IMG/VR virus record: IMGVR_UViG_3300034110_000167
Coordinates: 1-61,418 of that record
Direction: 5' to 3' (one strand)
Length of the DNA stretch: 61,418 bases
Source of the DNA: a virus
Made by a program: the position numbers and the translations under genes. Positions 31,538 to 60,242 of this stretch are shown here, piece by piece (the stretch's first letter is position 1; each line of letters begins with the position of its first letter). The notes under the pieces were generated by a model. The model was not told the origin of the DNA. It saw only the letters and a list, made by a program, of their open reading frames with translations, and did not search any database.

Positions 31538-31552
31538 ATAGTCCTTTCTATT

Positions 31553-31626: not shown

Positions 31627-31632
31627 ATTGTT

Positions 31633-31709: not shown

Positions 31710-31717
31710 TATTTGTT

Positions 31718-31793
31718 TGGCATACCCCGTAGGACTTGAACCTACAACCTGTGGGTTTGGAATCCACTGCTCTGCCAATTGAGCTAGAGGCAC
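31718..31793 (-). tRNA. tRNA-Trp (CCA)
   Basis: Acceptor GTGCCTC pairs with GGGGTAT with several G-T pairs. The D arm is AGCTCAATTGGCAGAGC, the anticodon loop TTCCAAA (CCA), the T arm GTAGG/CCTAC, and CCA is encoded. One A-C mismatch closes the anticodon loop. Confidence 0.88.
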
Positions 31794-31800
31794 ATTTGTT

Positions 31801-31888
31801 TGGTGGATGCTCTTGGAATCGAACCAAGTGTGCTCCTTAGAGCGGAGGATTTACAATCCCCTGAAGTCACCAATGCTTCTCAACATCC
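31801..31888 (-). tRNA. tRNA-Tyr (GTA), long variable arm
   Basis: Acceptor GGATGTT/AGCATCC, anticodon loop TTGTAAA (GTA), a long variable arm (CGCTCTAAGGAGC) as expected for bacterial class II tRNA-Tyr, T loop TTCGATT and encoded CCA. Confidence 0.9.
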
Positions 31889-31894
31889 TTTGTT

Positions 31895-31970
31895 TGGCTG
31901 GCAAACCTGGGCTCGAACCAGGGACATCATGATTAACAGTCATGCGCTCTACCAACTGAGCTATATGCCA
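31895..31970 (-). tRNA. tRNA-Asn (GTT)
   Basis: Acceptor TGGCATA/TTTGCCA with one T-T mismatch, D arm AGCTCAGTTGGTAGAGC, anticodon stem CATGA/TCATG with loop CTGTTAA (GTT), T arm CCTGG/CCAGG, encoded CCA. It is the first tRNA downstream of the promoter repeat at 32057. Confidence 0.92.
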
Positions 31971-42717: not shown

Positions 42718-42919
42718 AGTTAATATTGTAAGTAGGTGTACTACTTTCTTTTACGTTAGGCGATCCTAACTTGGTTAGCTCTTCAGCCATACACCCAATT
42801 AGGTTATTTTGTGCTTCAATAGTATCATTTGCTTCCTCAACTTCATTTGTCAGCTGCCAGTTCTTCCATCCAATCCAGACAAAAGCTGCTGCAATAATAA
42901 GTAGGTAGTCTGAATTCAT
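42710..42919 (-). CDS. Membrane-anchored small protein, 69 aa
   Basis: An N-terminal hydrophobic segment (YLLIIAAAFVWIGW, about residues 5-18) is followed by a short coiled-coil stretch (NEVEEANDTIEAQNNLIG) and a polar tail. The topology resembles Rz-type spanins or small inner-membrane proteins, but the location among replication genes argues against lysis. It overlaps both neighbours. Confidence 0.65.
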   Translation of the reverse strand: MNSDYLLIIAAAFVWIGWKNWQLTNEVEEANDTIEAQNNLIGCMAEELTKLGSPNVKESSTPTYNINYE

Positions 42920-43383
42920 AGTAATCCTGTCTGCTTAAGCCATTCAATATCGGCAAATTTATTGGGGTCAAATACTTCGTTTACAAGAATAAAGTTGTCT
43001 TTAAGGTATTTAACTCCTTTAAGACATTTATACTCGGATTGATACACCACACGAACAATACCGCAAGCGTATATAAGCTTAGCGCAATCAATACAAGGGG
43101 AAAGAGTACAATAGAGAGTGCTACCCTGAGTAGACAGGTTAGAACGAGCGACTTTAGCAATAGCTTGGGCTTCTGCATGCAATACAGGGTTACTTTGTGT
43201 ATCATTGTCTGTACCTCGTGCTGTACCATTGTATGAGAAGGCAATGATGTTATCATCCTTAACAATGATAGCACCTACCTTACGATCTTCTGCGTATGAT
43301 TGTTGTGCAATTAATGAGCAGATATTTAAATAAAAGTTATCCCAATCAGTTTGTGTTTTCATGTGCGTAATGGGCAAAGTCAT
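42916..43383 (-). CDS. dCMP deaminase-like enzyme
   Basis: The 155-aa protein has the zinc deaminase signature: VLHAEAQAIAK (His and catalytic Glu) and TLSPCIDCAKLI (two Cys). It should convert dCMP to dUMP for thymidylate synthesis. No thymidylate synthase is visible, so the host enzyme would finish the pathway. A second in-frame ATG at 43362 is an alternative start because the first overlaps the upstream gene by 38 bases. Confidence 0.88.
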   Translation of the reverse strand: MTLPITHMKTQTDWDNFYLNICSLIAQQSYAEDRKVGAIIVKDDNIIAFSYNGTARGTDNDTQSNPVLHAEAQAIAKVARSNLSTQGSTLYCTLSPCIDCAKLIYACGIVRVVYQSEYKCLKGVKYLKDNFILVNEVFDPNKFADIEWLKQTGLL

Positions 43384-45877: not shown

Positions 45878-46118
45878 TTACCAGTCCAAATTCAGATGCG
45901 GGATTAACCTTCTCGTAGATTGTGTTACGTGTTTCGAATGTACCACTTTTATCAGGGAACTTCACAATACCCGAAGTACGTACTTGAGAACACTTTCCTA
46001 AATTAGGGTGGTCTAGTACTTCAGGTAGATAGGCAATATACTCAATGTTATTTGGTTTAGAGTATAACCATTCACGGATAGAAATTGGCCCTGAGTAATG
46101 TACTACTGGTTTAATCAT
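45864..46118 (-). CDS. Hypothetical protein, 84 aa
   Basis: The ATG at 46118 (MIKPVVHYSGPISIREWLYS) overlaps the upstream stop by ATGA. An earlier in-frame ATG is less likely for that reason. It has mixed composition with no recognised domain. It overlaps the GIY-YIG-like gene by 14 bases. Confidence 0.62.
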   Translation of the reverse strand: MIKPVVHYSGPISIREWLYSKPNNIEYIAYLPEVLDHPNLGKCSQVRTSGIVKFPDKSGTFETRNTIYEKVNPASEFGLVNESY

Positions 46119-46651
46119 AATGTTTTCCATGTTTCATTTCTTGCAATACTTTCTGACTTACTTTTATCACGATCATCATTCATACTGCTGTGTAATTCAC
46201 TATCCAACAAGATAGCGCAACTGGCCATAATATGAGCTAAGTGATTTACTTTGCTGTCATGGGCAAAGTCTTCACCGTTATACCAGTCTGCTAAGTGTCG
46301 ATGCATAGCGTCATAGAATACGCTAGCAGTGGTACCTGTTTCACGCCAGTTATAGCGGCCATATTTACTTGCACCGTCAGACATAGCAGCACCTAAAGCA
46401 AATAGAGCTACTGGTGGTACGTCTGATAGTTTAGGTTTACCTTGAGCAGCAGCTGTTTTAAGGTTGGTGTCTACTAATTTGTTTATATCCATACCTTTAA
46501 ATCCTTTATAGTATTCTTCTTCATCGGCTTCAATGTTATATTGTTTAGCCATAGCATTAGACCATTTAGGTGTCATTGCATCGTAGAAGTCTTTCTTTTG
46601 TTGATTAGTAAATGGTTCGTAGTATTCATTCACATACTTAGGTAGAGCCAT
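46115..46651 (-). CDS. dATP/dGTP diphosphohydrolase-like protein
   Basis: The 178-aa protein matches the family once called DUF5664. The core is KPKLSDVPPVALFALGAAMS, then KYGRYNWRE, FYDAMHRHLADWYNGEDFAH and NHLAHIMASCAILLDSE. Family members cut dATP and dGTP to monophosphates. Some Z-genome phages use such enzymes to remove normal purines, but I see no PurZ here. With the deaminase and the MazG-like protein it points to pool remodelling. Confidence 0.8.
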   Translation of the reverse strand: MALPKYVNEYYEPFTNQQKKDFYDAMTPKWSNAMAKQYNIEADEEEYYKGFKGMDINKLVDTNLKTAAAQGKPKLSDVPPVALFALGAAMSDGASKYGRYNWRETGTTASVFYDAMHRHLADWYNGEDFAHDSKVNHLAHIMASCAILLDSELHSSMNDDRDKSKSESIARNETWKTL

Positions 46652-46924: not shown

Positions 46925-47014
46925 TTAGATATGTACTTTAGGTTTACGGAAAAATTGTGCAATGACAATTAAGGATGCAATGCATAGAATGGTGACCCAG
47001 ATATTTGTAATCAT
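46925..47014 (-). CDS. Membrane micropeptide, 29 aa
   Basis: The frame MITNIWVTILCIASLIVIAQ plus FFRKPKVHI is one transmembrane helix with a basic end. The ATG overlaps the stop of the deoxyribosyltransferase-like gene (ATGA), and its stop is followed by the next ATG after one base. The exact fit between neighbours is the main evidence. Confidence 0.6.
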   Translation of the reverse strand: MITNIWVTILCIASLIVIAQFFRKPKVHI

Positions 47015-47424
47015 AGATATTCTTCAATAATACTTTCACAAGCTTTTGTTACATCAGAGCGCCACTCAGTTACAAGTGACTCAAAGAACGGGTGAATAAC
47101 AGAAGCATCAGCTTTAAAGGCTACTACAGGTTTACGTAGTACATAGGATGCATAAAAGACTTCCATAGCTGTACCGTGTTTGGCTACAGTTGGTTTGTCT
47201 AGGTTTACTAGGATAATATCTGACTCTTGAATATCACGAAGATCTAATTCAAAGATACGCTTCATGTATCTTGGTTCAAAGTTATGAACACGGCGACATG
47301 GATTTAGTGTTTGAACTTCATTACGCCATAGCAGTAATTCTGCTTTTGTACGCCAACCTACAGCGTCTTCAACGGATACATGCTCCATAGGGCCAGCTAA
47401 ATACACGGTTCTTTGTTTATTCAT
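47011..47424 (-). CDS. Nucleoside 2-deoxyribosyltransferase-like protein
   Basis: The 137-aa protein has VYLAGPMEHVSVEDAVGWR at the start, DLRDIQESDIILVNLD in the middle and KHGTAMEVFYASYVLRKPVV, whose Glu matches the nucleophile of the family. These enzymes move deoxyribose between bases, and phage members may help salvage or DNA modification. The genome shows no obvious DNA hypermodification genes, so salvage is the simpler reading. Confidence 0.82.
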   Translation of the reverse strand: MNKQRTVYLAGPMEHVSVEDAVGWRTKAELLLWRNEVQTLNPCRRVHNFEPRYMKRIFELDLRDIQESDIILVNLDKPTVAKHGTAMEVFYASYVLRKPVVAFKADASVIHPFFESLVTEWRSDVTKACESIIEEYL

Positions 47425-49514: not shown

Positions 49515-50301
49515 TCACCATGCCTTTAAAGTCCATTGGAACAACAATAGTGTGTACGCGTCCTGCTGCAATACCCTCAGCAATTTTCATTTGAGCTTGT
49601 GCTTGCATGTAAGCAATACTCTGACCTGAGTTGGATGATAATGCAGCCATACGCTCAGATTCTTTCTTGGCAATTTCAACTTCAGTTTGTTTTACTTTAA
49701 GTTCATTTTGTGCTTTGACATATTGAGTAGCAGATGCTAGGATATCAGCATTAGGCAGGATGTTACGTACTTGTACTACAGTTAGTTGGATAGCTGTATC
49801 AAGCTTTTCTGTTTTAAGTTGCTCAGTTACTGTTTGCTGGATTTCAGCCTCAATCTTAGCGCGGTTATCAGCTACTTCAAGTGACTTGTACTGACGAACG
49901 ACTTTATAAGCAGCATTGTTTACCAGAGTGCTCATATAGTTGTGCATCAGGAAGATATCACCTTTGTGTTCAGTATGGAATGAACGACTCTTTGTAGAGT
50001 ATAGTTCAGCAACCGATGTGGAGTTTAAACCATACACAACTGTAATATCGAAGTCAGCTAATGGACTGTTATCAGCAGTCATCGGTGTTTTGTTTTCCAG
50101 AGTTACAGCAATATCTTTTACAGGGAATGTAAGGATAGAACCAACCATAGTTTGGTAGAAACCACCGGGCTGTAGTTCGGTACCCTCAATTTGTTTAGAT
50201 GCATTCATACGAACACCTACTTCACCTGTTTCAATACGGGTACAGGCTTGTAGAGAGATTAATGCAGCAATGATAGCGGTGATTTTGAAGAATTTAGTCA
50301 T
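49504..50301 (-). CDS. SPFH/prohibitin-like lipoprotein
   Basis: The 265-aa protein begins with a lipoprotein signal (LISLQAC, lipid-modified Cys20). The SPFH core follows (GEVGVRMNASKQIEGTELQP, FPVKDIAVTLENKTPMTADN, then VTEQLKTEKLDTAIQLTVV). A coiled-coil Lys/Glu/Ala-rich helix ends near IAEGIAAGRV. SPFH proteins form membrane rings and control proteases such as FtsH. Prohibitin-like proteins are rare in phages and could protect phage proteins from membrane proteolysis. The following two genes also look membrane-linked or coiled-coil. Confidence 0.85.
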   Translation of the reverse strand: MTKFFKITAIIAALISLQACTRIETGEVGVRMNASKQIEGTELQPGGFYQTMVGSILTFPVKDIAVTLENKTPMTADNSPLADFDITVVYGLNSTSVAELYSTKSRSFHTEHKGDIFLMHNYMSTLVNNAAYKVVRQYKSLEVADNRAKIEAEIQQTVTEQLKTEKLDTAIQLTVVQVRNILPNADILASATQYVKAQNELKVKQTEVEIAKKESERMAALSSNSGQSIAYMQAQAQMKIAEGIAAGRVHTIVVPMDFKGMVNVK

Positions 50302-50322
50302 GTTATGTGTCCTTTGAGTTGA

Positions 50323-50538
50323 TTAAGCGGAAATAAGTTTAGCGATTTTATCGGCAATAGCTTTGGCATTGAATGCTTCTGCTTGTGCGTTCTTTTGTTC
50401 AGCGTTCAGTTGCTGGATTTCAATTTCAATATTGTTGTATCGTTGAGTTTCTTTTTCATTGATAGCCAGCAGATCATCAATAGTCTTTTGAAATGATGCA
50501 ACGACTGAGGCAACTGTTTTGGGTGTATTGAAGAACAT
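50323..50538 (-). CDS. Small coiled-coil protein, 71 aa
   Basis: After MFFNTPKTVASVVASFQKTI the protein is almost pure heptad repeat (NIEIEIQQLNAEQKNAQAEA), ending ADKIAKLISA. It is encoded just upstream of the SPFH gene in the transcript. A partner of the SPFH ring or a spanin-like protein is possible, but it lacks a signal peptide. Confidence 0.68.
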   Translation of the reverse strand: MFFNTPKTVASVVASFQKTIDDLLAINEKETQRYNNIEIEIQQLNAEQKNAQAEAFNAKAIADKIAKLISA

Positions 50539-50548
50539 TTTTAAACCT

Positions 50549-50716
50549 TTAAAAGAGAAGTGTAATGGCTGTTAATACTGATACGGATACGAAAGCCGTG
50601 GCTAATACAGCTAACATAATTTTAGCTGTTTTTAAGGTGAAATTATCTTTGAAGAACCAGTAACTACCGGCCACAACAAACATTGTCAGGAAGAATACAA
50701 ATAGCAATTTAATCAT
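50549..50716 (-). CDS. Small membrane protein, 55 aa
   Basis: The frame MIKLLFVFFLTMFVVAGSYW, a short basic loop, then IMLAVLATAFVSVSVLTAIT gives two transmembrane helices. The start overlaps the RNA ligase stop (ATGATTAA). It precedes the coiled-coil and SPFH genes, so the three may form a membrane module. Confidence 0.65.
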   Translation of the reverse strand: MIKLLFVFFLTMFVVAGSYWFFKDNFTLKTAKIMLAVLATAFVSVSVLTAITLLF

Positions 50717-51734
50717 TTTTTAATAACCATTTATTAGAGATAGCTTTGAAAGATTTGGATGGATCATTTACATTTTTGAATACAAGTCCTTCACGTTCTG
50801 TTTTAGGGTTTAATAATGATTTGCCTTCTGCAACAGCTAGGAGTTCATTTACTTTGGTATCTTCACTGGTGTGGTAGTTGGCAAAGACAGGTGCATGTTG
50901 GATACCAATAGACTTACACAGAGATAATCTTTGCTCAGTTGAGTAGTATTGTTGTGTGGAAATATCCCAGATATCAAAGCAGAAGAATGTTGGCTCATTC
51001 ATGTTGTAGCTGTTACCTTGAATACCTGGGCCTAACAGTTCACCTTGGATAGCTACATTTAGATTATGAGCAGCTAGTTTAGATAGGATACATTCTTTAT
51101 GAGCTGTTTTTACAAATGCATTATCAAGATCATCAATTTTAAGTTCATAGTTACGACTACATACGCCAAGATGTGTTGAACCGTCTTCTTTGGAGGTACG
51201 GAAGACAGTCATTGAAGAACCATCAAGCTTTTCAGTGATTTCCCATGTTTGTGTACCAAGGCTTTCAAGTGTACGACCGTAGTTTTGGATGCGTTCTTGA
51301 TCAGTTTTTGGGATAAATGAAGGGAAGTTACCAGCCATTTTACCGGCTAATTGTGCTGGAATAGTTTGTTCCCATTTGAGAATATTGTATTCAGTAGTTA
51401 CATCTTCATTAATACCGTAGAACTCTTTATCAGCAGGTGATAGTGGTAATACTAAACCTTGACTAATTTGGCCTTTAAGTCTAATAGTGCGTAGACGTTC
51501 ACCTTTAACACCTTGGTATTCACGAGGTTCTTTACCTTTAGATAGGAATGGGGCTAGTTCTGTGGGAATCCATGAGTCAATTTCAAAGTATACACATAGA
51601 TCACCTACATTGAATTCACCTTTTTTGATAACGACTTCCCAACCATCAATAACAGCTACTTCAATTAAGTCAGCGTCTTTAATAGGCTTTAGTTGTTGGA
51701 TAACACGGATTGTTGCTAGTTTACGATCAGACAT
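50709..51734 (-). CDS. RNA ligase, DRB0094 (Rnl5) family
   Basis: The 341-aa protein has the N-terminal OB-like module of the Deinococcus DRB0094 family (LATIRVIQQLKPIKDADLIE, GWEVVIKKGEFNVGDLCVYF). The ligase core follows with motif I TEKLDGSSMTVF (Lys169), later IQGELLGPG (motif III/IIIa region), REGLVFKN (motif IV) and FKAISNKWLL (motif V). The family repairs nicked RNA. With six phage tRNAs nearby in the genome, repair of tRNAs cut by host anticodon nucleases is a plausible role. Confidence 0.88.
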   Translation of the reverse strand: MSDRKLATIRVIQQLKPIKDADLIEVAVIDGWEVVIKKGEFNVGDLCVYFEIDSWIPTELAPFLSKGKEPREYQGVKGERLRTIRLKGQISQGLVLPLSPADKEFYGINEDVTTEYNILKWEQTIPAQLAGKMAGNFPSFIPKTDQERIQNYGRTLESLGTQTWEITEKLDGSSMTVFRTSKEDGSTHLGVCSRNYELKIDDLDNAFVKTAHKECILSKLAAHNLNVAIQGELLGPGIQGNSYNMNEPTFFCFDIWDISTQQYYSTEQRLSLCKSIGIQHAPVFANYHTSEDTKVNELLAVAEGKSLLNPKTEREGLVFKNVNDPSKSFKAISNKWLLKND

Positions 51735-51996
51735 TTACAGATTCCCAACTGGTTACTTCAATAACTTTCTTTACAGGCTTTACTTCACGGATTTCAGAAT
51801 CACCGTATTCATAGTCAGACCAGTAAGATCCACTACGATTTTGCATGATTTCATAGTATTTATTGTTATATTCAATGATGTCGGTTTTGAATTGGTGTTT
51901 ATGTTCATTAATCCAGTCACCTTCTTCAATTACTTTACACTCTAGTTCATCACTATCGTATTGGTCTAGGATTTGTTTTAAGCTTAATTCAGACAT
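51727..51996 (-). CDS. Hypothetical acidic protein, 89 aa
   Basis: The N-terminus is very acidic (ILDQYDSDELECKVIEEGDW), and the middle is Tyr/Asn-rich. The stop overlaps the RNA ligase start. No family is recognised. It could be a DNA mimic, but the charge is not extreme enough to claim this. Confidence 0.62.
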   Translation of the reverse strand: MSELSLKQILDQYDSDELECKVIEEGDWINEHKHQFKTDIIEYNNKYYEIMQNRSGSYWSDYEYGDSEIREVKPVKKVIEVTSWESVNV

Positions 51997-52246
51997 GGAT
52001 AATTCCTACAACTTGTTTAATGGTTTTGATACTATCACGAATGGCTTTTAGTTTACGCTTGGTTTGACGAGCTAATTCTTTATGCTGGTTTAGTGATGCA
52101 AATAGTACTTCAGTGTATGGATTGTTCTTTTGAAGTGGATCACAGAGTTCCCACAGATAAGCAATTTCTGCTTTGTGGAATAGGAGGTTTTCTTCTTGTA
52201 CATGAAGTTCTGCACGGAGAATATTGAGTACAATTTGCTTGTTCAT
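51989..52246 (-). CDS. Hypothetical helical protein, 85 aa
   Basis: This basic helical protein (MNKQIVLNILRAELHVQEEN) ends TIKQVVGIIHV. It follows the terminator at 52256-52302, so a promoter inside or read-through must supply its transcript. No family is recognised. Confidence 0.65.
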   Translation of the reverse strand: MNKQIVLNILRAELHVQEENLLFHKAEIAYLWELCDPLQKNNPYTEVLFASLNQHKELARQTKRKLKAIRDSIKTIKQVVGIIHV

Positions 52247-52255
52247 ATAGTCTTT

Positions 52256-52302
52256 CGAAATAAAAAGCCCTATAACAGACCTTTTCAGGACCGTTATGGG
52301 CT
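52256..52302 (-). terminator. Intrinsic terminator after the ssDNA-binding protein gene
   Basis: On the minus strand AGCCC and ATAAC pair with GTTAT and GGGCT with two bulged bases, and an inner AGG/CCT helix closes the loop. The hairpin is followed by TTTTTATTT. It lies 25 bases after the ssDNA-binding protein stop, so it can limit read-through to downstream genes. Confidence 0.85.
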
Positions 52303-52327
52303 ATATTTATAGAGGGTAATTATCTAT

Positions 52328-52846
52328 TCAGAAATCGTCATTTTTAGACGGTGCTGCGTTAGTTTCATTACCACCTTCATCGTCAAAATCAACGAAGTTA
52401 TCAGACTTACGCTCGTATTTGACGAGGTTTGTTACTTGTACTTTGGTTAGCATTGTGGAAGTACCTGACTTGGTAACTTTACCGTTAGGTGCTTTGATTT
52501 CGTAAGGACGCTGGAATACAATAATGTTACCTGTAGAGCCGTTACCAATTAACTTGCTGTCAAATGGTTGCTTATTGGCATCTACTACACCTACTTTAGC
52601 TGCTTCTGTACCGTCTGCCTTTAAAGCTTTCTTTTTGAGAGCTACTGCTACGGTACCTTTATCAAAACCTTCTTTGACTTTACCAAATGATGAGATTTCA
52701 GACTCACGCTTTTTAGGCACTTGAACAGTCAGTTCCCATTGCAATGTGCCAAATGGATCGACTGGCTTGTCTAGCTTAGCCCAATAGAGTTGTACATCGC
52801 GTACAATAGTGTTGAAGCCTTCGGTTTGGTTTGTGTTAGTAGTCAT
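52328..52846 (-). CDS. Single-stranded DNA-binding protein (T7 gp2.5-like)
   Basis: The 172-aa protein has an OB-fold-like body (VQLYWAKLDKPVDPFGTLQW, FQRPYEIKAPNG) and a very acidic C-terminal tail (FVDFDDEGGN...SKNDDF). The tail is the mark of T7 gp2.5-type proteins, which use it to contact DNA polymerase and primase-helicase. I chose the ATG at 52846 because AAGGAAA lies 8 bases upstream. An in-frame ATG at 52933, coupled by ATGA to the upstream gene, could add 29 residues. Confidence 0.85.
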   Translation of the reverse strand: MTTNTNQTEGFNTIVRDVQLYWAKLDKPVDPFGTLQWELTVQVPKKRESEISSFGKVKEGFDKGTVAVALKKKALKADGTEAAKVGVVDANKQPFDSKLIGNGSTGNIIVFQRPYEIKAPNGKVTKSGTSTMLTKVQVTNLVKYERKSDNFVDFDDEGGNETNAAPSKNDDF

Positions 52847-52929
52847 GGTTTTATTTCCTTTTGGATTTGTGAATTGTGTGATTAAATTTTCTTTGAATGA
52901 ATAGTCGTTTTTGTATTCGATATATTCAC

Positions 52930-53259
52930 TCATTTGTTAGTAGCAATATATAGTGCAATACGGGTAGCAACAGGTAGCTCAGTACGGCGGTAAGATTCTT
53001 CTTCGTTAGTTTGTAGTTGTACACCTAAGGCAGTTAGCAGGGTGTTAGCTTGGGAAACTTCAGATGTTACTTTATCACGACTCTCAGAAGCCCATTTATA
53101 GTTGGACTTTTGTGTTTCAACTTCTTTGTTCAGGTTTTTAACTTCTTCTTTGAGACTTTTGTTTTGTTCATAGATAGCTTTAACTTCTTTATCAGATAGT
53201 GTAATGGCAATAATTTCAAGATCAGTGCCTGTAACTTCGATTTGGATAGAGTTTGACAT
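52930..53259 (-). CDS. Coiled-coil hypothetical protein, 109 aa
   Basis: After a beta-rich start (IQIEVTGTDLEIIAITLSDK), residues about 30-70 form a coiled coil (NKSLKEEVKNLNKEVETQKS). It lies next to the divergently transcribed gene at 53300 and directly upstream of the SSB gene. No family is recognised. Confidence 0.66.
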   Translation of the reverse strand: MSNSIQIEVTGTDLEIIAITLSDKEVKAIYEQNKSLKEEVKNLNKEVETQKSNYKWASESRDKVTSEVSQANTLLTALGVQLQTNEEESYRRTELPVATRIALYIATNK

Positions 53260-53260
53260 G

Positions 53261-53279
53261 AGCTGGTACCTATTAGGTA
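53261..53279 (+). promoter_or_regulatory. Phage promoter repeat, plus orientation, before 53300
   Basis: The sequence AGCTGGTACCTATTAGGTA fits the repeat with TATTAG in place of TAATAG. It is the only plus-oriented copy in the minus block and directly precedes the only plus-strand gene there. Confidence 0.65.
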
Positions 53280-53299
53280 AAGTTTATTAAAGGAACGAA

Positions 53300-53698
53300 A
53301 TGAAGAAAAATTATGTTAGAGTAGCACACCCTAACTCTTTGGCTAACCTGAAGGTTATTACTAACAAAGACATGGCCAGAGAATATCAAGCTAAGTCTGT
53401 TGATAGTCGTAAGCGTAACGCTGAAGCAATTAAAGCCCTTACTGAGGAATTTAATTGCAGTGCAGAGGTTGTCAAGAAAGTGTTAGCTTCTGTTGATATT
53501 AAAGCCTTAGATGTTATTAAAATGAGTATGATGGATGCTTTATCAAAGCAGAACTATGAAGATGCCAGTAGGTATGCATCACAATTAGCTGAGTACGAAG
53601 CACCTAAGCTATCTCGTTTGGAACAGACAAATGTATCTAAAGTAGAAGATTTGACTGATGAAGAACTTAAAGAAATTCTTAAAAGAGAAGGTATGTAA
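53300..53698 (+). CDS. Candidate small terminase subunit
   Basis: The 132-aa protein stands alone on the plus strand inside the minus-strand early block, with its own promoter repeat and terminator. Its middle is helical (MAREYQAKSVDSRKRNAEAI), followed by DALSKQNYEDASRYASQLAE and the closing VEDLTDEELKEILKREGM. The last segment is typical of phage small terminase C-termini, and the middle resembles small terminases of T7-like marine phages as I remember them. No other small terminase candidate lies near the large subunit. AAAGGAAC precedes the ATG. Confidence 0.6.
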   Translation: MKKNYVRVAHPNSLANLKVITNKDMAREYQAKSVDSRKRNAEAIKALTEEFNCSAEVVKKVLASVDIKALDVIKMSMMDALSKQNYEDASRYASQLAEYEAPKLSRLEQTNVSKVEDLTDEELKEILKREGM

Positions 53699-53707
53699 TT
53701 ATAAATT

Positions 53708-53736
53708 GACCACATTAATTTGTGGTCTTTTTATTT
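53708..53736 (+). terminator. Intrinsic terminator of the isolated plus-strand gene
   Basis: GACCACA (53708-53714) and TGTGGTC (53721-53727) form a perfect 7-bp stem with loop TTAATT, followed by TTTTTATTT. On the minus strand the T-run is missing, so it should not stop early minus-strand transcripts efficiently. Confidence 0.92.
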
Positions 53737-53768
53737 ATGGTACATGCTGTCTCATTCTGTTCTTTGTA

Positions 53769-53790
53769 TTCTCTATTAGGTACCGGCTAG
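53769..53790 (-). promoter_or_regulatory. Phage promoter repeat, minus orientation
   Basis: The minus strand reads CTAGCCGGTACCTAATAGAG. The last codons of the 65-aa gene (Ala-Gly-Thr-stop) are GCC GGT ACC TAA of this element. It faces the coiled-coil and SSB genes but would first transcribe antisense through the isolated plus-strand gene. Confidence 0.65.
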
Positions 53791-53973
53791 CTCTAGCTGC
53801 TGTTTGTTGAGGTATTCTGAGGGTAGTCTGCCTAGGTATTGTACATAGTCTTCCTTTGTCACAGAGAACATTTCGCCTGATACAGGATCATAGAACAATC
53901 CATCAGGTGTATTCCAGTTACAACGCAGAGACCATACAAAAGGGCGTTTATGTGGTTGTAGTGTGTAGGTCAT
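53776..53973 (-). CDS. Hypothetical protein, 65 aa
   Basis: The sequence MTYTLQPHKRPFVWSLRCNW has later PDGLFYDPVSGEMFSVTKED and ends QQLELAGT, where the last three residues and stop come from the promoter repeat. No family is recognised. It starts 2 bases after the next upstream gene's stop codon region and overlaps nothing else. Confidence 0.65.
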   Translation of the reverse strand: MTYTLQPHKRPFVWSLRCNWNTPDGLFYDPVSGEMFSVTKEDYVQYLGRLPSEYLNKQQLELAGT

Positions 53974-53974
53974 T

Positions 53975-54142
53975 TCAGTCAGTTACATATTTGATAATTG
54001 TAGCAGCAGACCATGTAATTCCAGCAGCTATTCCGAAACCAATACCTAGGCCTGGAATAGTAACTAGCATGAGAAGGTACACGGCTGTTAGTATAGCTAT
54101 GGCTATTTTAACGCTCAATGGGAGTTCTTTAAGGAATTTCAT
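53975..54142 (-). CDS. Small membrane protein, 55 aa
   Basis: The frame MKFLKELPLSVKIAIAILTA, then a Gly-rich turn and IGFGIAAGITWSAATIIKYV, has two transmembrane helices with a basic N-terminus. The ATG overlaps the upstream stop. It may act on the host membrane. Confidence 0.66.
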   Translation of the reverse strand: MKFLKELPLSVKIAIAILTAVYLLMLVTIPGLGIGFGIAAGITWSAATIIKYVTD

Positions 54143-54408
54143 ACAATCTCTAATGTTTGTTTGATACTTTTTAGTTCAGACTTTTTGAAAGTAAGTACTC
54201 GGATTCGTTCGATAGGGTATCCTTCCCAATCATAATTCACTACATTTACAATATCTTGTACTGTTGCTTTTTCTTTGTCAACAACAAAATAACATTCAGT
54301 ATCAAGCTGACCATCATCAGTACCAAATACTAGGTATGATACACTTTCTTTATCGGTGTCTGGTTTATTGCTGTTTGACACACGGGACACGGTTTTGCTA
54401 GTAGCCAT
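54139..54408 (-). CDS. Hypothetical protein, 89 aa
   Basis: The Ser/Asp-rich N-terminus (MATSKTVSRVSNSNKPDTDK) is followed by a compact alpha/beta part (YLVFGTDDGQLDTECYFVVD). It overlaps the end of the deaminase-like gene by 79 bases, so a later start is possible. No family is recognised. Confidence 0.6.
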   Translation of the reverse strand: MATSKTVSRVSNSNKPDTDKESVSYLVFGTDDGQLDTECYFVVDKEKATVQDIVNVVNYDWEGYPIERIRVLTFKKSELKSIKQTLEIV

Positions 54409-54638
54409 TTTGAGGATTTTCCTTGACGAAAGATGTGAATGGAATGTGCTTTGGATATATCTTTACACTTGATGATAGCGTCTATCTCGGCATGAAGATA
54501 TATCTTTTCTGGATGACCAGCTTTGTGAGCACATAGAGCTTGGTAAGGATGTGTCTTTACATAGTTGTTTTGACCTATGCTGAGAATGTTACCTTTCTTG
54601 TCTTTAATAAAGGCAGTAATGCTTTGTTCTGAAGACAT
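54330..54638 (-). CDS. Cytidine-deaminase-fold protein, 102 aa
   Basis: The sequence has YLHAEIDAIIKC (His and catalytic Glu) and KPCPVCQTAI (two Cys), the zinc site of the deaminase superfamily. It is shorter than dCMP deaminases and starts MSSEQSITAFIKDKKGNILS. It is the second deaminase of the genome. Substrate unknown: a free base, nucleotide or nucleic acid is possible. Confidence 0.75.
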   Translation of the reverse strand: MSSEQSITAFIKDKKGNILSIGQNNYVKTHPYQALCAHKAGHPEKIYLHAEIDAIIKCKDISKAHSIHIFRQGKSSKWLLAKPCPVCQTAINQTPIKKVYHT

Positions 54639-54979
54639 ATTGTTCCATCAGCGTTTAGAGTACCTACAATTTTTGCTTTCCTACGATCAAATATACATTG
54701 AGTACTTCCTTTTACAATTAAGTCTTTGGGTACAGCTAGTACCCTTATTTTGAAGTTCTTTGGATGATACTTAAAGTCTTTTTTACACCACCATTTGAAG
54801 ATATCTGTTTTACGAGTACAACCACACCACCATTCACTTAAGGCACCTGTGTTTATATTATCTACTCTTGGTACAGGTAAGCTATACCAATGTGAATCAG
54901 GTACTTTTGAAGGTCTACCATTAAGAGGTTTCTTAGTACACTCACCACGATACACTATTGTATAGTCTTTAAGGTTCAT
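54575..54979 (-). CDS. Hypothetical protein with Cys/Trp-rich centre, 134 aa
   Basis: The middle of the protein has SEWWCGCTRKTDIFKWWCKK, which could bind zinc. The C-terminal part is beta-rich. It overlaps the deaminase-like gene by 64 bases. No family is recognised. Confidence 0.64.
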   Translation of the reverse strand: MNLKDYTIVYRGECTKKPLNGRPSKVPDSHWYSLPVPRVDNINTGALSEWWCGCTRKTDIFKWWCKKDFKYHPKNFKIRVLAVPKDLIVKGSTQCIFDRRKAKIVGTLNADGTICLQNKALLPLLKTRKVTFSA

Positions 54980-55148
54980 CTTTGGTCCTTAGAACAGAAG
55001 GTATAAACTTCTTTACACCTAAGAGTTTACCATGAAGAAAGGTCTTTTGGATACCTGTATTTGGATCATACACTACTCTCATTTCAGACTTAACCTTAGC
55101 TTTAACTCTTTTGATAAGGTCAAAGTAGATGTCATTGGCATTAGTCAT
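54969..55148 (-). CDS. Small basic protein, 59 aa
   Basis: The frame MTNANDIYFDLIKRVKAKVK continues SEMRVVYDPNTGIQKTFLHG and ends RTKDEP. It is basic with a possible nucleic-acid-binding surface. It is the first gene after the promoter repeat at 55249 and overlaps the next by 11 bases. Confidence 0.6.
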   Translation of the reverse strand: MTNANDIYFDLIKRVKAKVKSEMRVVYDPNTGIQKTFLHGKLLGVKKFIPSVLRTKDEP

Positions 55149-55248
55149 GGTTGATTTCTTGGTTTAAAGGAAAAGAATAGATACATTAACTAAATACCTT
55201 TATTAAAGTACTTATATTAATATATCTATAGAATATTTACCGGACTGG

Positions 55249-55270
55249 TTTTCTATTAGGTACCGGCTAA
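55249..55270 (-). promoter_or_regulatory. Phage promoter repeat, minus orientation
   Basis: The minus strand reads TTAGCCGGTACCTAATAGAA, then AA. As in the copies at 53769 and 32057, it encodes the last residues (Ala-Gly-Thr) and stop of the upstream gene. A gap of about 100 AT-rich bases then precedes the 59-aa gene. Confidence 0.68.
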
Positions 55271-55519
55271 CTTTTGATTACGATTGAAGTCAGAGGCAGC
55301 AAAGTAGATTTCTGCCAGTAGGTGTGAACATTCGTTATTATTTTCTTTGGAGTTATGTGGTCCATTACATTTGTCTAGTAGTCCTACTCTAGTTATATGA
55401 GAGGTACCACCTAATGCCAACAGTGCTTTCAGTTCTTCGGGTGTGAATGTCAGAGTCAAAACAGGTTGGTCTTCGTAGACAGTTTTAACTACTTGTAAGG
55501 TTTGAGTTGAGGATTTCAT
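55256..55519 (-). CDS. Early small protein family member, 87 aa
   Basis: The N-terminal MKSSTQTLQVVKTVYEDQPV leads into LTLTFTPEELKALLALGG, a motif shared with three neighbouring small proteins. Later come Cys and His residues (DKCNGPH...NECSHLLAEIYFA) and the promoter-encoded end KLAGT. It overlaps the next gene by 4 bases. Function unknown; probably host takeover. Confidence 0.66.
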   Translation of the reverse strand: MKSSTQTLQVVKTVYEDQPVLTLTFTPEELKALLALGGTSHITRVGLLDKCNGPHNSKENNNECSHLLAEIYFAASDFNRNQKLAGT

Positions 55520-55722
55520 GATTTAATAGCAATATAGAGTTTGTTGAGGAATGATTGTAGGAGACTAAACGAATGTTTGTCATCTAGGTATAGTATTACG
55601 GGTACAGCCCATTGTTTCTCAGAGAGCGTCTTTAGGGTATTATGTTCTTCTTGGGTGTCTATGTAGATTGTGAGTGAGTATGGTTCGAAGGGTTTTGGGT
55701 GGGTGTTTTTGGTTATTTGCAT
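55516..55722 (-). CDS. Early small protein family member, 68 aa
   Basis: The core SLTIYIDTQEEHNTLKTL, then VILYLDDKHSFSLLQSFLNK and LYIAI, aligns by eye with the product of 55969. Strand-EE-helix, strand-DD-helix is the shared pattern. ATGA overlap downstream. No function is known. Confidence 0.66.
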   Translation of the reverse strand: MQITKNTHPKPFEPYSLTIYIDTQEEHNTLKTLSEKQWAVPVILYLDDKHSFSLLQSFLNKLYIAIKS

Positions 55723-55724
55723 TA

Positions 55725-55967
55725 TCAGCTTTCTGTAAAAGTGATTGTCAGAGTACCGGCTTCTTTAATAACAGTGTATTCTTCATTGAAGAAGTTTCGA
55801 CTGGAGTAACTGACATGACCAGTTTTATCTATGTAAGTAACGCCGTATGGGGAAGGTAGTGCATAGTAGGTATATTCACTGGAGTTTTTTACATGGTACC
55901 ATTGGAAGGAACAGTTTTTTGTAGTGAGTATTTGCCTGGATTTGGTTTCTGTTACAGTGGCTTTCAT
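55725..55967 (-). CDS. Early hypothetical protein, 80 aa
   Basis: The protein is Tyr/Ser/Thr-rich and beta (MKATVTETKSRQILTTKNCS, then YYALPSPYGVTYID), ending AGTLTITFTES. It sits between two members of the small early family but does not share their motif. One base separates it from the next upstream gene. Confidence 0.64.
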   Translation of the reverse strand: MKATVTETKSRQILTTKNCSFQWYHVKNSSEYTYYALPSPYGVTYIDKTGHVSYSSRNFFNEEYTVIKEAGTLTITFTES

Positions 55968-55968
55968 T

Positions 55969-56169
55969 TTATAATGTTCTCATTGAGTTGTGGATTTCAC
56001 CTAAGATATCGCTTAGTATCTTTTTCATTTTATAGTCGTCTGGGTATACTATATCGGGTATTGTTTCGTCATAAGTCATAGCCCATTGAAGGGCTTTGTA
56101 TTCTTCTAAACTTTCGAAGTTTACGGTTAGTGTCGCTGAGAATGGTGCTTGGGAGACAGAGGATTTCAT
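55969..56169 (-). CDS. Early small protein family member, 66 aa
   Basis: The sequence ATLTVNFESLEEYKALQWAM, then IPDIVYPDDYKMKKILSDIL and GEIHNSM, matches the 68-aa protein at 55516 in order and spacing of the strand-EE-helix and PDD/LDD-helix parts. AAGGAAATGTTATA precedes the ATG. Confidence 0.66.
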   Translation of the reverse strand: MKSSVSQAPFSATLTVNFESLEEYKALQWAMTYDETIPDIVYPDDYKMKKILSDILGEIHNSMRTL

Positions 56170-56212
56170 TATAACATTTCCTTATTGATTGATGTTCATT
56201 GATAAGCTTTTG

Positions 56213-56306
56213 ATACCCACACAAAATCTCACCCAAAAGTATACCTTTCCCAACGATCTCGCTAGAATAGTCATCGAAGTACACTTTGGGCGTCTTTTGT
56301 GGGTAT
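56213..56306. repeat. Long imperfect inverted repeat between early genes
   Basis: The left arm starts at 56213 (ATACCCACA) and the right arm ends at 56306 (TGTGGGTAT). Pairing continues inward through AAA/TTT and CCCAAA/TTTGGG, about 22 pairs with small bulges around a loop of about 40 bases. It fills the 142-base gap between two early genes. No T-run follows, so an RNase III or regulatory hairpin is more likely than a terminator. Confidence 0.7.
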
Positions 56307-56311
56307 GTTAC

Positions 56312-56524
56312 TTAACAATTTTCTGCCAGAGCCTCCTGTTCTTGCATGTATTGTTCGTAGGATATAGCAAAAGCCTTGAACTTGGTAAGTTCTTTAAGGG
56401 CTTTTGTTACTTCTTCCTGTTGTTCTACCGACTGAGGGTCTGATCCTAGTACGTTTACCAGAAAAACCAGTTCTTCAGGTGAGCATGTGATAATAAACTC
56501 ATCACGGTGTTTAGTTAGTTGCAT
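56312..56524 (-). CDS. Early small protein, 70 aa, related motif
   Basis: The start MQLTKHRDEFIITCSPEELV has the same strand-then-PEEL pattern as the 87-aa protein (TFTPEELKAL). The rest is Glu/Gln-rich and helical, ending ALAENC. Its start shares a base with the stop of the upstream gene. Function unknown. Confidence 0.65.
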   Translation of the reverse strand: MQLTKHRDEFIITCSPEELVFLVNVLGSDPQSVEQQEEVTKALKELTKFKAFAISYEQYMQEQEALAENC

Positions 56525-56874
56525 TATTTTTCTCCAAGAATAGTGATTGAAGTAAGTTTTCCGTCAGTGAACGTCCATTCAAGCATTTCCTCTCTTGTTG
56601 CTGGTTCATCATACCATACTTGTGGTGTCATGTTGTTGAGATCTTGTTTGGTTCGTACGTATTTTTCAATACGATCAAAGAAAGTGTACTGTTTGACAAT
56701 TACTGGTTGTGGTTTGATGCGGTATTCAAGGCAATTAAACCAATGAGGGTTTTTTATTGATTCCCAAGTATCGTAGCCGTCACTACGTACTTCAATCTTT
56801 GCACCATCAGCCCATGCTTTGATACATTCTGCGTGTTTATGTGGTACTGAACGTAGCGAAGTGTTTGTGTTCAT
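56524..56874 (-). CDS. Early conserved protein, 116 aa
   Basis: The N-terminal half has HKHAECIKAWADGAKIEVRS, then WESIKNPHWFNCLEYRIKPQ. This motif (HAExIKAWADGA ... EYRIKP) occurs in many phage and prophage proteins of unknown function. The C-terminal half is specific to this phage. The start follows AAGGAACTAAC. Confidence 0.72.
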   Translation of the reverse strand: MNTNTSLRSVPHKHAECIKAWADGAKIEVRSDGYDTWESIKNPHWFNCLEYRIKPQPVIVKQYTFFDRIEKYVRTKQDLNNMTPQVWYDEPATREEMLEWTFTDGKLTSITILGEK

Positions 56875-56883
56875 GTTAGTTCC

Positions 56884-57132
56884 TTAAATAGTTTGTGCTT
56901 GATCATACACAGCGGTGTACTCAATGACAATACCCGGTAATTCTACCTGAGCAGTCATGTTGGTCATTGTTTTTTGGGTATTTGCTATTGCAAACATTAC
57001 TGTGTTACCTAGTGGATCAATGCTGGTGAGCGTTGAACAGCTGAACTCTTCAAGAGCCTCTGTGATTTCATCGTAGGTGTTCATCCCGAACATTGATGGG
57101 ATAAGAGGTGTGAGTAATAAGAAGCGTGTCAT
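56884..57132 (-). CDS. Early hypothetical protein, 82 aa
   Basis: The ATG at 57132 follows a strong AGGAGAATACT ribosome-binding site. The sequence starts MTRFLLLTPLIPSMFGMNTY and is acidic and beta-rich later. Its leader contains the structured RNA element at 57184-57237. Confidence 0.66.
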   Translation of the reverse strand: MTRFLLLTPLIPSMFGMNTYDEITEALEEFSCSTLTSIDPLGNTVMFAIANTQKTMTNMTAQVELPGIVIEYTAVYDQAQTI

Positions 57133-57183
57133 AGTATTCTCCTTGAGTTATGACGGTTAAAGAGCAGAGTCTGCGACCCTGTA

Positions 57184-57237
57184 GTAGTACCGGATAGCAC
57201 TACCCATAGGACACTACAAGAATGTCCTACAGGTACT
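57184..57237 (-). ncRNA. Structured RNA element B (double hairpin) between early genes
   Basis: In the minus-strand transcript UAGGACA pairs with UGUCCUA around the loop UUCUUGUAG. A second hairpin (GUAGU/ACUAC) has AUCCG in its loop, and AGUACC/GGUACU can close the whole unit. Element A at 57602 has the same order and the same loop motifs but different stems that still pair. Confidence 0.7.
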
Positions 57238-57245
57238 GTTATATA

Positions 57246-57575
57246 TTAGACAGCATCAACAATGTTATAGAACCATACGTTAGGATCGTTGCCACCAGCA
57301 GCAACAAAGCTGATCTTAGTCTGTGCATCATACACTTTCTGAAGACGCTTTGTCAAAGCCTGAACTAATTTCTCATCGTTGAGACGATCAATACGGCACT
57401 GACGCTTACGGTTATCAGAACCGGTAGCTTCAATAGAACGAGTTGTCTCATTGAATGTCAATTCAGCAATGGTCACAGGAAGGCTCTTACGATCTTCACC
57501 AAAGGGATTGTTGGTTGAGAAGGCAACATTGGCCTTAGCAGCGACTTTGAAGGAAGGAGTGAAAGCTTTAGTCAT
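57246..57575 (-). CDS. Early hypothetical protein, 109 aa
   Basis: The protein MTKAFTPSFKVAAKANVAFS is basic, with NETTRSIEATGSDNRKRQCR and a C-terminal DPNVWFYNIVDAV. AAGGATAATACC precedes the ATG. Codons are more GC-rich than in most early genes, suggesting strong expression. It is flanked on both sides by the structured RNA elements. No family is recognised. Confidence 0.68.
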   Translation of the reverse strand: MTKAFTPSFKVAAKANVAFSTNNPFGEDRKSLPVTIAELTFNETTRSIEATGSDNRKRQCRIDRLNDEKLVQALTKRLQKVYDAQTKISFVAAGGNDPNVWFYNIVDAV

Positions 57576-57601
57576 GGTATTATCCTTGGTTGACTGGTTA
57601 T

Positions 57602-57647
57602 GGACGGATTGTCCCCATAGAATACTCAGAGAATATTCTATAGGTAC
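57602..57647 (-). ncRNA. Structured RNA element A (double hairpin) between early genes
   Basis: In the transcript AUAGAAUA pairs with UAUUCUAU around the 9-base loop UUCUCUGAG, followed by GGAC/GUCC with the loop AAUCC. It shares GUACCU before and AUGGG after the first hairpin with element B. Both elements lie in the leaders of early genes. Confidence 0.7.
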
Positions 57648-57653
57648 AGAACC

Positions 57654-57764
57654 TTAATGGCAGTAATGTACATCCACCAGTGTTGGTAGGTATTGAGTGA
57701 GGTTTTGTTTGTCAGTTGTTTTAAACAACAGACGACCAGTACGTTTAGAGTAGACGTAGTACAT
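57654..57764 (-). CDS. Early small basic protein, 36 aa
   Basis: I chose the ATG at 57764 (MYYVYSKRTGRLLFKTTDKQ), because CAGGAGGACTTCTA gives a strong ribosome-binding site 7 bases upstream. The start shares two bases with the upstream stop (TAATG). The product ends LVDVHYCH. Function unknown. Confidence 0.65.
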   Translation of the reverse strand: MYYVYSKRTGRLLFKTTDKQNLTQYLPTLVDVHYCH

Positions 57765-57919
57765 TAGAAGTCCTCCTGAGAAACAAACAAGATACAACCT
57801 GCCATTATCCCTGACATTAGACCAACATAGGCCATAGGCCACAGACCGAAGAATAGTACCAGTATTACAGAGGAAACACTGATACCAGTGAGAAGGGCAA
57901 GCAAGAGAGGTGTGAACAT
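57764..57919 (-). CDS. First clear early gene: small membrane protein, 51 aa
   Basis: The ATG at 57919 (MFTPLLLALLTGISVSSVIL) follows AGGACTACT. Two hydrophobic spans (residues 3-22 and 25-45) and an acidic end (SQEDF) suggest an inner-membrane protein. It is the first convincing gene of the minus-strand block, so it may be among the first phage products made. Confidence 0.65.
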   Translation of the reverse strand: MFTPLLLALLTGISVSSVILVLFFGLWPMAYVGLMSGIMAGCILFVSQEDF

Positions 57920-58540
57920 AGTAGTCCTAGGTAACAGAGCAAAGACGCTCTCGGAAGGCACCACAGAGGAGCCAACCGGGAAAGCCCTTAGAAGGGGAGC
58001 AAGTCATCCGAAGCACGGACAGGGAAGAACCGAGACAACCAAGCCACAGAGCTTTCGACCCAAGCAGGAGGCCAACCAGACAACAGCACAACGTCACTGT
58101 AGTACGGAACAGCAACCCAGTCACGAGCAACAACACAGCCCCACAGCAGAGACCAAGCACGAGGACCACCGAAGGACCACACCAAGACAGAAGCAACAAA
58201 CGAAGCAAACATACCAACCCCAAAGAGCGCAGACAAGGAAGCCGACAGCACCGCGCCAAGCACAGCCGACAGGAAGGACGGGACCGCCGCAGACAACGCA
58301 GCCCACAGAAACGAGGGGGGCCACGGAACCAGAACGGGGGAACCCAAACAAACACACATCTTTTTCTCACACACAAAGAAAGAGATACCCACAGACAAAT
58401 ACCCAAACCAAAACTCCCAAAATAAAACAAGGGGTACCCTAAAACAATTTCCAATTACATCTCGCCAATAAAATATCACAATTATATTCTCCATAAAATA
58501 GTAATCTAAATATTACTCTTCCAATACGTAATATAAGGTA
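57920..58540. other. Divergent control region with T-depleted core
   Basis: This 620-base gap separates the early minus-strand block from the terminase. From 58122 to 58358 the plus strand has only one T (58212). This alone removes stop codons on both strands, because all stop codons contain T on the plus strand and A on the minus strand. It explains the long overlapping open frames here: plus 57888-58442, minus 57927-58454 and 57988-58494. The last encodes a hydrophobic, Ala/Ser/Val-rich sequence that could be a membrane protein, but no good ribosome-binding site precedes it. The last 100 bases are AT-rich and include an AGTAAT/ATTACT hairpin at about 58499-58516. An origin, an early promoter region or a membrane-protein gene are possible. 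Confidence 0.6.
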
Positions 58541-58559
58541 GTCGGTTCCTAATAGGAAA
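58541..58559 (+). promoter_or_regulatory. Phage promoter repeat, plus orientation, before the terminase
   Basis: GTCGGTTCCTAATAGGAAA fits the repeat with TTCC in place of TACC. Forty bases later the terminase gene starts. An ACACT/AGTGT hairpin (about 58564-58579) lies between them. This is the main candidate for starting the plus-strand late transcript. Confidence 0.68.
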
Positions 58560-58598
58560 ATAATACACTTAGAGTAGTGTTAAATAAGGACACATACA

Positions 58599-60242
58599 TT
58601 GACAGTAACTAACAAACAAAAATTAGAAGCCCTGAGAGAGCTGCAGAAAAGACAAAAGTTAGCTCAATATCAAACTAACTTTGAGCTATTTGCAAAAGAA
58701 CAAATCAAAATTTTACCCAAAGACAGCTCTCAGGGATTTAAATACTTTGAGTTTAATGAAGCTCAAAAAATTGTTAACAATAAAATTGAAGAACAATTAG
58801 CGGAGACTGGAAGAGTACGTGCTATTATTCTTAAGGCCCGACAAATGGGTTTAAGTACGTATACTACAGCTAGGGTTTTCTGGAAATCCTATTTTAATGC
58901 TTACAACAAATCAGTTGTTATGGCTCATGATGCAGCTACCTCTGATGCCTTGTTTAGTATGTCCAGAAATACTATTTCAAACATGGACCCAACATTCAGA
59001 CCTGCATTTAAGAAATCTAACGCCAAAGAAATTATGTTTGAACATAATGATTCGGGTTACAGACTATACACGGCGGGTGCCCCTGAAGCGGGTAGAGGTA
59101 CAACACCTACTATTGCACACTTATCTGAAGTTGCCTTCTGGACACATGATGAGAAAATTCTTGCTGGTTTATTTCAGGGTATTTCTCAGGCTAAAGGTAC
59201 CGAAGTAATTCTAGAGAGTACAGCTAACGGTGTGGGTAACGCTTTTCACAGATTGTGGAAGGGAGCTGTTGCCGGTGAAAACGAATACATTGCTATTTTC
59301 GTACCATGGTTTCTGATGACAGAATACCGGAGAGAAATTCCTTCAAAAATTACTTTTGAAAGAACTACCGAAGAAGAGGTACTGGTCACAAGGTTTAACC
59401 TAGACAACGAACAACTGTATTGGAGACGATTAAAGATAGCTGAGGGAGGCTTAGATAAATTTAAGCAAGAGTATCCGGCTACACCTGAAGAAGCATTTAT
59501 TGTTTCAGGTTCTAACGTATTTAATATTGAGAAGTTATCACAATTAATTCCTCAGCCAATACTAAAGCAAATGGAGTTTAGTTTTGAATCAATGATGATG
59601 GAAGAAAAACCAAGGGGTTCAATAGAAATTTTTAAGTTTCCTACCTTTGAAGATTCTTTTGTTGTTGGCGCTGACGTTGCCTTAGGGGTAGGTAAAGACT
59701 ATTCCACGGCTGTAGTTATGAATAATAAAAGAGAAGTTTGTGCTGTATACAGAAACAACACAATAGATCCTTCTCAGTTTGGTGATCTTTTATTTTATCT
59801 GGGAAGATACTACAATAATGCCCTCTTAGCTGTTGAGTCTAATTCAATGGGTATAGCAACATTAAACCGACTAACTCAAATGGGTTATGTCAATATGTAC
59901 TATCAAACTAAGATGGCTAATGTGTCCAAAGAAGAAGGTACACGTATTGGTTGGAGAACTACTTCTGCTTCTAAACCTGCAATAATTGGCTTCTTAAAGA
60001 ATGCTATTGAGCAGGAAGATATTTGGATCCCTTCAAGAATTATTATTGGGGAGTTAATGAATTATGTGGCAGATGATTCTGGAAAGACTAATGCTATTAT
60101 TGGCCATAATGATGACACTGTTATTGCTTTGGCCATTGCCCTAGAAGTAATAAGAACTCATGGTGATAAATTAACAACTAACAATGTACCTTTTTCACAA
60201 AGAATGGGGTCATTCCAACAAATAGAAAGTACTTGGCTATGA
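58599..60242 (+). CDS. Terminase large subunit
   Basis: The 547-aa protein starts at a TTG with AAGGA upstream. The ATPase part has a Walker A-like KARQMGLST (residues 79-87) and Walker B with catalytic Glu177 (IAHLSEVAFW). The RNase H-like nuclease has Asp359 (GADVALG), Glu413 (AVESNSMG) and Asp505-Asp506 (GHNDDTVIAL). It packages DNA through the portal. The small subunit is not next to it; the isolated gene at 53300 is the best candidate. It overlaps the next gene by 4 bases. Confidence 0.95.
   Translation: MTVTNKQKLEALRELQKRQKLAQYQTNFELFAKEQIKILPKDSSQGFKYFEFNEAQKIVNNKIEEQLAETGRVRAIILKARQMGLSTYTTARVFWKSYFNAYNKSVVMAHDAATSDALFSMSRNTISNMDPTFRPAFKKSNAKEIMFEHNDSGYRLYTAGAPEAGRGTTPTIAHLSEVAFWTHDEKILAGLFQGISQAKGTEVILESTANGVGNAFHRLWKGAVAGENEYIAIFVPWFLMTEYRREIPSKITFERTTEEEVLVTRFNLDNEQLYWRRLKIAEGGLDKFKQEYPATPEEAFIVSGSNVFNIEKLSQLIPQPILKQMEFSFESMMMEEKPRGSIEIFKFPTFEDSFVVGADVALGVGKDYSTAVVMNNKREVCAVYRNNTIDPSQFGDLLFYLGRYYNNALLAVESNSMGIATLNRLTQMGYVNMYYQTKMANVSKEEGTRIGWRTTSASKPAIIGFLKNAIEQEDIWIPSRIIIGELMNYVADDSGKTNAIIGHNDDTVIALAIALEVIRTHGDKLTTNNVPFSQRMGSFQQIESTWL

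Follow-up and report, generated by a model that had tools for sequence, protein, structure and literature searches.

An A-free zone at the start of the early operon in CRP-7-like podoviruses

Introduction

In the Alc system of bacteriophage T4, transcription by the host polymerase is halted on DNA with unmodified cytosine. G-less and C-less transcription cassettes are laboratory constructs in which a transcribed stretch is missing one base, and the somatic hypermutation of antibody genes follows a gradient from near the transcription start, with decay over 1–2 kb and a strand asymmetry. Each of these has something in common with the locus described here, a zone at the start of a phage early operon from which A is nearly excluded on the RNA-like strand. 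As in T4, the presence or absence of one base would decide the passage of early transcription, but the whole T4 genome is modified, whereas here one strand of one short zone is without a base. The zone is like the cassettes in being a transcribed stretch without one base and differs from them in that it is natural, conserved and inclusive of protein-coding sequence; with somatic hypermutation it shares the gradient, the span of decay and the strand asymmetry, but its composition holds no trace of a deamination product.

To our knowledge, no system of this kind and no mechanism that accounts for an A-free zone have been described. A literature search limited to open papers found no precedent for A-free or T-free phage stretches, and a conserved avoidance of one base by position, regardless of coding, matches no described phage control region that was found. 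No Alc homologue was identified in the window, by which is meant the whole stretch of viral DNA that was analysed (61,418 nucleotides). The window shares terminase, portal, capsid, T7-like RNA polymerase and replication genes with the CRP-7-type podoviruses, a group described in PMC6918029; a text search of that paper gave no hit for promoters or for origins.

A stretch with a single T between divergent operons

An earlier note on this DNA had pointed to 58122-58358 of the plus strand as 237 bases with one T, at 58212, in a genome rich in T elsewhere, and base counts confirm both parts of the claim. The stretch holds 95 A, 81 C, 60 G and 1 T; the window overall is 30% T, and the lowest-T stretch of 237 nt elsewhere (scanned outside 57600-58700) has 28. 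By a binomial model, at most one T would occur in 237 bases with a probability of 6e-36, or 4e-31 across all stretches of that size, which rules out chance as the cause. The stretch was also rightly said to be GC-richer than its surroundings (59% versus ~39% in the flanks), asymmetric between the strands and placed at the divergence of the two transcription blocks, with the leftward early genes on one side and the rightward terminase gene (58599) on the other. The features of the region are these:

57246..57575, minus strand: normal-A member of the zone protein family, 109 aa, predicted OB fold
57600..57990, minus strand: recovery gradient (partial), early-strand A rising back toward normal
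57988..58212, minus strand: first early gene, 74 aa, ATG at 58212, A-free to ~58122; start aligns with the first genes of relatives
58213..58358, minus strand: leader of the early operon, 146 nt without A, template strand without T; from aligned leaders of relatives
58357..58379, minus strand: border motif, TCTTTGTGTGT(G)(N)AAAAGAATCA, window variant TCTTTGTGTGTGAGAAAAAGATG; from a motif scan of viral contigs
58429..58440: GGGTACCC-type palindrome, between the late promoter and the border motif, in most relatives
58540..58559, plus strand: putative late promoter of the phage RNA polymerase type, AGTCGGTTCCTAATAGGAAA
58599..60242, plus strand: terminase large subunit gene, the anchor for finding relatives

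The sole T, at 58212, is the A of a minus-strand ATG that matches the first-gene starts of relatives in place, in spacing to the leader and in its ribosome-binding site. Because the gene start aligns in this way, the stretch is made up of the 146 nt leader and the opening 91 nt of the gene that follows it, the first of the early operon, and the feature is therefore an A-free RNA-like strand on a T-free template. The Shine-Dalgarno-like sequence of this gene is GGGG in place of GGAG, and its 74-aa product is rich in residues with A-free codons and gave no match in homologue searches. The frame 57988-58494, treated in the earlier note as a possible gene, is too long; the start in relatives corresponds to 58212, and the long frame itself has no relatives. 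Among the other minus-strand early genes are those for an RNA ligase, a DNA ligase, a DNA polymerase, a primase-helicase, a T7-type RNA polymerase and a ribonucleotide reductase.

The two edges of the stretch are unlike. The right edge is abrupt and adjoins the conserved motif that runs from 58379 to 58357 on the minus strand, and the left side is gradual: in successive steps of 100 nt from the border, the minus strand of the window has 0, 1, 8, 5, 16, 18 and 33 A. Adjoining the zone, the plus strand of 58341-58540 is poor in G (13 of 200 bases), and thus C-poor on the other strand, with repeated CTCnCCAA-like words and, within it, the GGGTACCC palindrome that is kept in relatives.

Conservation among CRP-7-like podoviruses

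A terminase search of 2.9 million viral contigs returned 80 related loci, and nearly all of those that reach upstream of the terminase carry a T-poor stretch of ~100 to 985 nt with 1–9% T. This argues against a chance insertion, for which absence from otherwise identical phages had been named as the sign. Over 58 distinct loci, early-strand A stands at ~25% before the motif, drops to 0.9% at 60–119 nt past the motif start and climbs to 35–37% by 2 kb, so that recovery spans 1–2 kb. These 58 loci were chosen partly for low A past the motif, and the 80-locus terminase survey is therefore the less biased count. The gradient is also seen in individual genomes one by one. Once A is omitted, the T:G:C ratios are equal inside and outside the zone, as expected if A alone had been removed.

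The zone differs in length among relatives (~100–1000 nt) and is conserved in two clades. A sister clade with terminases 68–71% identical has neither motif nor zone, and the trait is thus not universal in the wider CRP-7-type group; locus L208, whose terminase also falls within that range, has both. The zone was not found in Vibrio phages 1.204.O and 1.182.O, Rhizobium phage RHph_N37, Roseobacter phage CRP-114, podovirus ctuNt529 or contig G011, and its absence from these six, which have a related polymerase or terminase, rules it out as a general trait of T7-like phages. The A-free start of the early operon is a family trait of CRP-7-like podoviruses, which are aquatic bacterial viruses.

The cultured marine Roseobacter phage CRP-7 (MK613349; loci L082/L083) has a terminase 57% identical and an RNA polymerase 29% identical to those of the window. 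Its early and late blocks likewise diverge, and a single A lies within 57384-57776 (393 nt), which is the A of the ATG at 57608; CRP-7 differs in having the zone without the exact border motif. The first early gene that starts there (57608-57994, plus strand, 128 aa) is missing from the GenBank annotation, which leaves the A-free strand unannotated and places gp72 (57271-57966) on the opposite, T-free strand. The frame of gp72 is open because T is missing on that strand, and gp72 is probably a spurious gene. The earlier caution that open frames in T-free DNA are no proof of genes was sound, and it serves as a warning for annotation, since such DNA is open in all frames.

The border motif and nearby signals

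Depletion of A begins immediately past TCTTTGTGTGT-N-AAAAGAATCA in the early-strand reading. When all viral contigs were scanned for the core motif, 65 matched, 47 of them with 12 or fewer A in the following 100 bases, and most of the remaining contigs look like chance matches in unrelated phages. We infer that the border motif is probably an early start element. It has no second copy in the window and is not a member of the repeated promoter set AGYCGGTWCCTAATAG of this phage, from which it differs. The AGYCGGTWCCTAATAG promoter-like repeats (plus strand at 58540 and 11723; minus strand at 55268, 53788, 43952, 35058 and 32076) probably serve the phage's own T7-type RNA polymerase. No base-free zone follows the late promoter (58540..58559) or the other start sites in the window. 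Upstream of the motif there was no enrichment for a sigma-70 promoter in relatives, where the best scores were 8.34 versus 8.55 in shuffled controls; the window has one 10/12 sigma-70 pattern match.

RNA structure was rejected as the cause, since leaders fold barely better than their shuffles (mean z −0.79 on both strands) and an Rfam search of the leader returned nothing at gathering score. Two other suggestions of the earlier note fared no better: an R-loop-forming leader is disfavored because the RNA is U-rich and purine-poor, and no evidence turned up for entry-end DNA read by an injected polymerase.

The site might also be a replication origin, at which a T-free strand would be unprimable by a T-requiring primase, or would be unstructured, and would aid the first fork at the divergence. 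The zone does sit between divergent operons beside a C-poor stretch with repeated words, a T7-type primase-helicase and polymerase are encoded, and the cumulative GC-skew minimum falls at the zone in four of nine genomes (within 700 nt in G003, G005, G018 and CRP-7). In the window and in G001, however, the minimum is 8–9 kb from the zone, and in G009, G017 and G019 it lies elsewhere; a minimum at the zone would also follow from gene direction. Primase sites, moreover, are short motifs, for which the loss of every T, even in ribosome-binding sites, is unneeded, and an origin is in our estimation an unlikely cause. Separately, within 50000-58000 the sign of the GC skew flips at ~50 kb although the genes keep their direction, as happens in G001 too, and this is a possible replication signal.

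A constraint on the base rather than on the protein

Across 21 distinct zone sequences, the first-gene family has a median dN/dS of 0.30 when read in frame and of 1.34 and 1.69 when the frame is shifted, and the low in-frame value indicates that the first-gene family of the zone is a real gene. The bases within it are nonetheless chosen by another rule. Fourfold sites carry A in 15 of 1902 cases in zone genes (0.8%) versus 568 of 1804 in other early genes (31%); serine is encoded by AGY and TCN at 5:423 versus 71:210, and arginine in zone genes by AGR and CGN at 4:233. The ribosome-binding GGAG has become GGGG in the window and other phages, and ATG has given way to GTG in several, as in locus L010, which has GTG where L031 has ATG. 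The depletion spans the leader, the ribosome-binding site, and coding and intergenic DNA.

The same protein family occurs in an A-free form in the zone and a normal-A form outside it, with both in L044, L298 and the contig of L007 (L044 and L298 have two family copies on one contig each). Members 113–126 nt from the border have 3–7% A and 8–21 residues with A-requiring codons, a member at 780 nt has 26% A, and members at 1222–1431 nt have 25–30% A and 54–56 such residues. The window copy at 57246-57575 is 31% identical over 59 residues to the zone copy of L007. Since one family is A-free in the zone and normal outside, even within one genome, it is position and not protein that sets the rule. 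Nor does the zone end at a gene boundary, because synonymous A is back at ~58122 in the first gene of the window, which ends at 57988. These comparisons demonstrate that A is kept out of one strand of transcribed DNA, coding and non-coding alike, according to position, and that this rule overrides the ribosome-binding site, the choice of start codon, synonymous codon use and amino-acid content.

It had been supposed that clear purifying selection on one frame would reduce the stretch to a gene. Such selection is indeed present in relatives, but gene status fails to explain the missing A, because homologues outside the zone have normal A. A membrane-protein gene without A, offered as the cause, mistakes the effect for the cause. 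That an ordinary hydrophobic protein simply needs no A, or that chance produced the zone, thus has a negligible probability, even with a real first gene whose product is rich in A-free residues: the non-coding leader is equally A-free, A is avoided at synonymous sites, and the zone is conserved across two clades.

This early protein family, to which 57246-57575 belongs, is WF-ending, has a predicted OB fold and is found in one or two copies per genome. The predicted structure is a confident OB barrel, and Foldseek pairs it with numerous OB-fold proteins, among which carbohydrate-binding subunits of bacterial toxins rank highest. With a best E-value of 0.003, identities mostly of 6–16% and no other toxin-like neighbor, a relation to toxins was set aside and the likeness taken as one of fold only.

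The A that remains in the zone seldom has T or A after it, and the Asp and Tyr codons that are left are GAC and TAC much more often than they are elsewhere, a bias that may reflect high expression or a context effect. Many cleavage sites of MazF- and RelE-type enzymes contain A. It is conceivable, then, that an A-free mRNA evades an A-requiring ribonuclease of the host or phage that destroys ordinary mRNA early in infection. The depletion affects the RNA-like strand, extends from the leader through the ribosome-binding site into coding sequence, and leaves little A before T or A, as such an escape would have it. Yet known mRNA interferases read motifs, and the depletion is nearly context-blind; A returns at 58122, within the first gene of the window (which runs to 57988), so that the message would still be cleavable; and no such enzyme was identified. 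Ribonuclease escape is for these reasons improbable.

Discussion

The exclusion of A may reflect a cost paid during the first transcription of the genome. Each template T, or each A in the RNA, near the early start would lower the yield of the earliest transcripts, and selection would clear those bases as a result; the cost would fall with distance because fewer polymerases reach that far, and a cost scaled by polymerase passage would produce both the sharp start and the slow decay. The depletion is consistent with this model in being strand-specific, in decaying one way from the border motif and in being nearly context-blind, the last of which fits a reader of one base rather than of a motif. 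Template T is favored over RNA A because polymerases are hindered by lesions and bulky T modifications that lie in the template strand, and these are tolerated in the other. For T7 RNA polymerase, bulky or charged T modifications inhibit transcription when in the template strand and are tolerated in the non-template strand (PMC11550810). We place the probability that A exclusion in the early operon was selected because template T, or RNA A, near the start lowers the yield of the earliest transcripts, most likely through a block at template T, at about 0.38.

More specifically, and more doubtfully, T in the virion DNA could be modified, or turned into a lesion after entry, such that it stalls the host RNA polymerase in the template strand and not in the other. 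A T-free template would then be a clear runway, evolved so that the first gene or genes could be read before the block is relieved. Every zone-bearing genome checked has a nucleoside deoxyribosyltransferase-like gene (47011-47424 of the window, minus strand, PF05014), CRP-7 among them with its gp21, and no gene of this type was found in the zone-less contigs checked, some of them incomplete; the genomes compared are few. Among the ORFs of the window, no known pathway for thymine modification, uracil-DNA or 2-aminoadenine was recognized, and neither was a dUMP hydroxymethylase or an inhibitor of uracil-DNA glycosylase, many small early ORFs being without a match. PurZ of the 2-aminoadenine phages was not found, the large early ORFs all having other identities; the window does encode a dATP/dGTP diphosphohydrolase-like protein (46115-46651, minus strand) without PurZ. 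Against a template-T cost stand the variable length of the zone and the sister phages that manage without one, and the preference for GAC and TAC is not predicted by such a cost in its plain form.

A sharp start, a one-way decay and the loss of a single base on one strand could instead be the mark of targeted mutation, in which a process linked to early transcription mutates non-template A at a rate that decays from the start and selection keeps the A that is indispensable, as in start codons. The window encodes two proteins that might be considered for such a process:

42916-43383, minus strand: dCMP deaminase
54330-54638, minus strand: small deaminase-fold protein, 102 aa (HAEIDAI..PCPVC), patchy among relatives

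However, the G excess expected of A-to-G deamination is not seen, which rejects that process in its simple form, and of 21 records, 16 do not have the small deaminase, G003 among them, whose zone is one of the cleanest; the absence of this protein from most zone-bearing genomes rejects it as the cause. TAC and GAC contexts are retained. A diversity-generating retroelement was not detected, there being no reverse transcriptase among the scanned ORFs of the window and the zone belonging to none of the repeat families shown. Targeted mutation is accordingly very improbable.

By its nature, the zone implies a reader of a single base that acts in the first moments of infection. The candidates are a new kind of DNA chemistry, a nuclease or a barrier to transcription that is specific to one base, and a targeted mutator, any of which would be a finding in itself. 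If altered T that blocks transcription from the template strand does prove to be responsible, chemistry would be the reason why an entire transcribed region makes do with three letters. Because CRP-7 is cultured, bench tests are feasible.

Some further features of the window may be recorded. Five tRNA genes (Arg-TCT, Met, Trp, Tyr and Asn) lie at 30889-31970 on the minus strand, near the end of the early block, and a ferritin-like protein is encoded at 29791-30222 (minus strand), near where the two blocks converge. A direct repeat of 225 nt (99%) occupies the contig ends, 1-225 and 61194-61418, inside the portal gene, and on this repeat the contig appears to be a closed circle or a terminally redundant molecule of ~61.19 kb.
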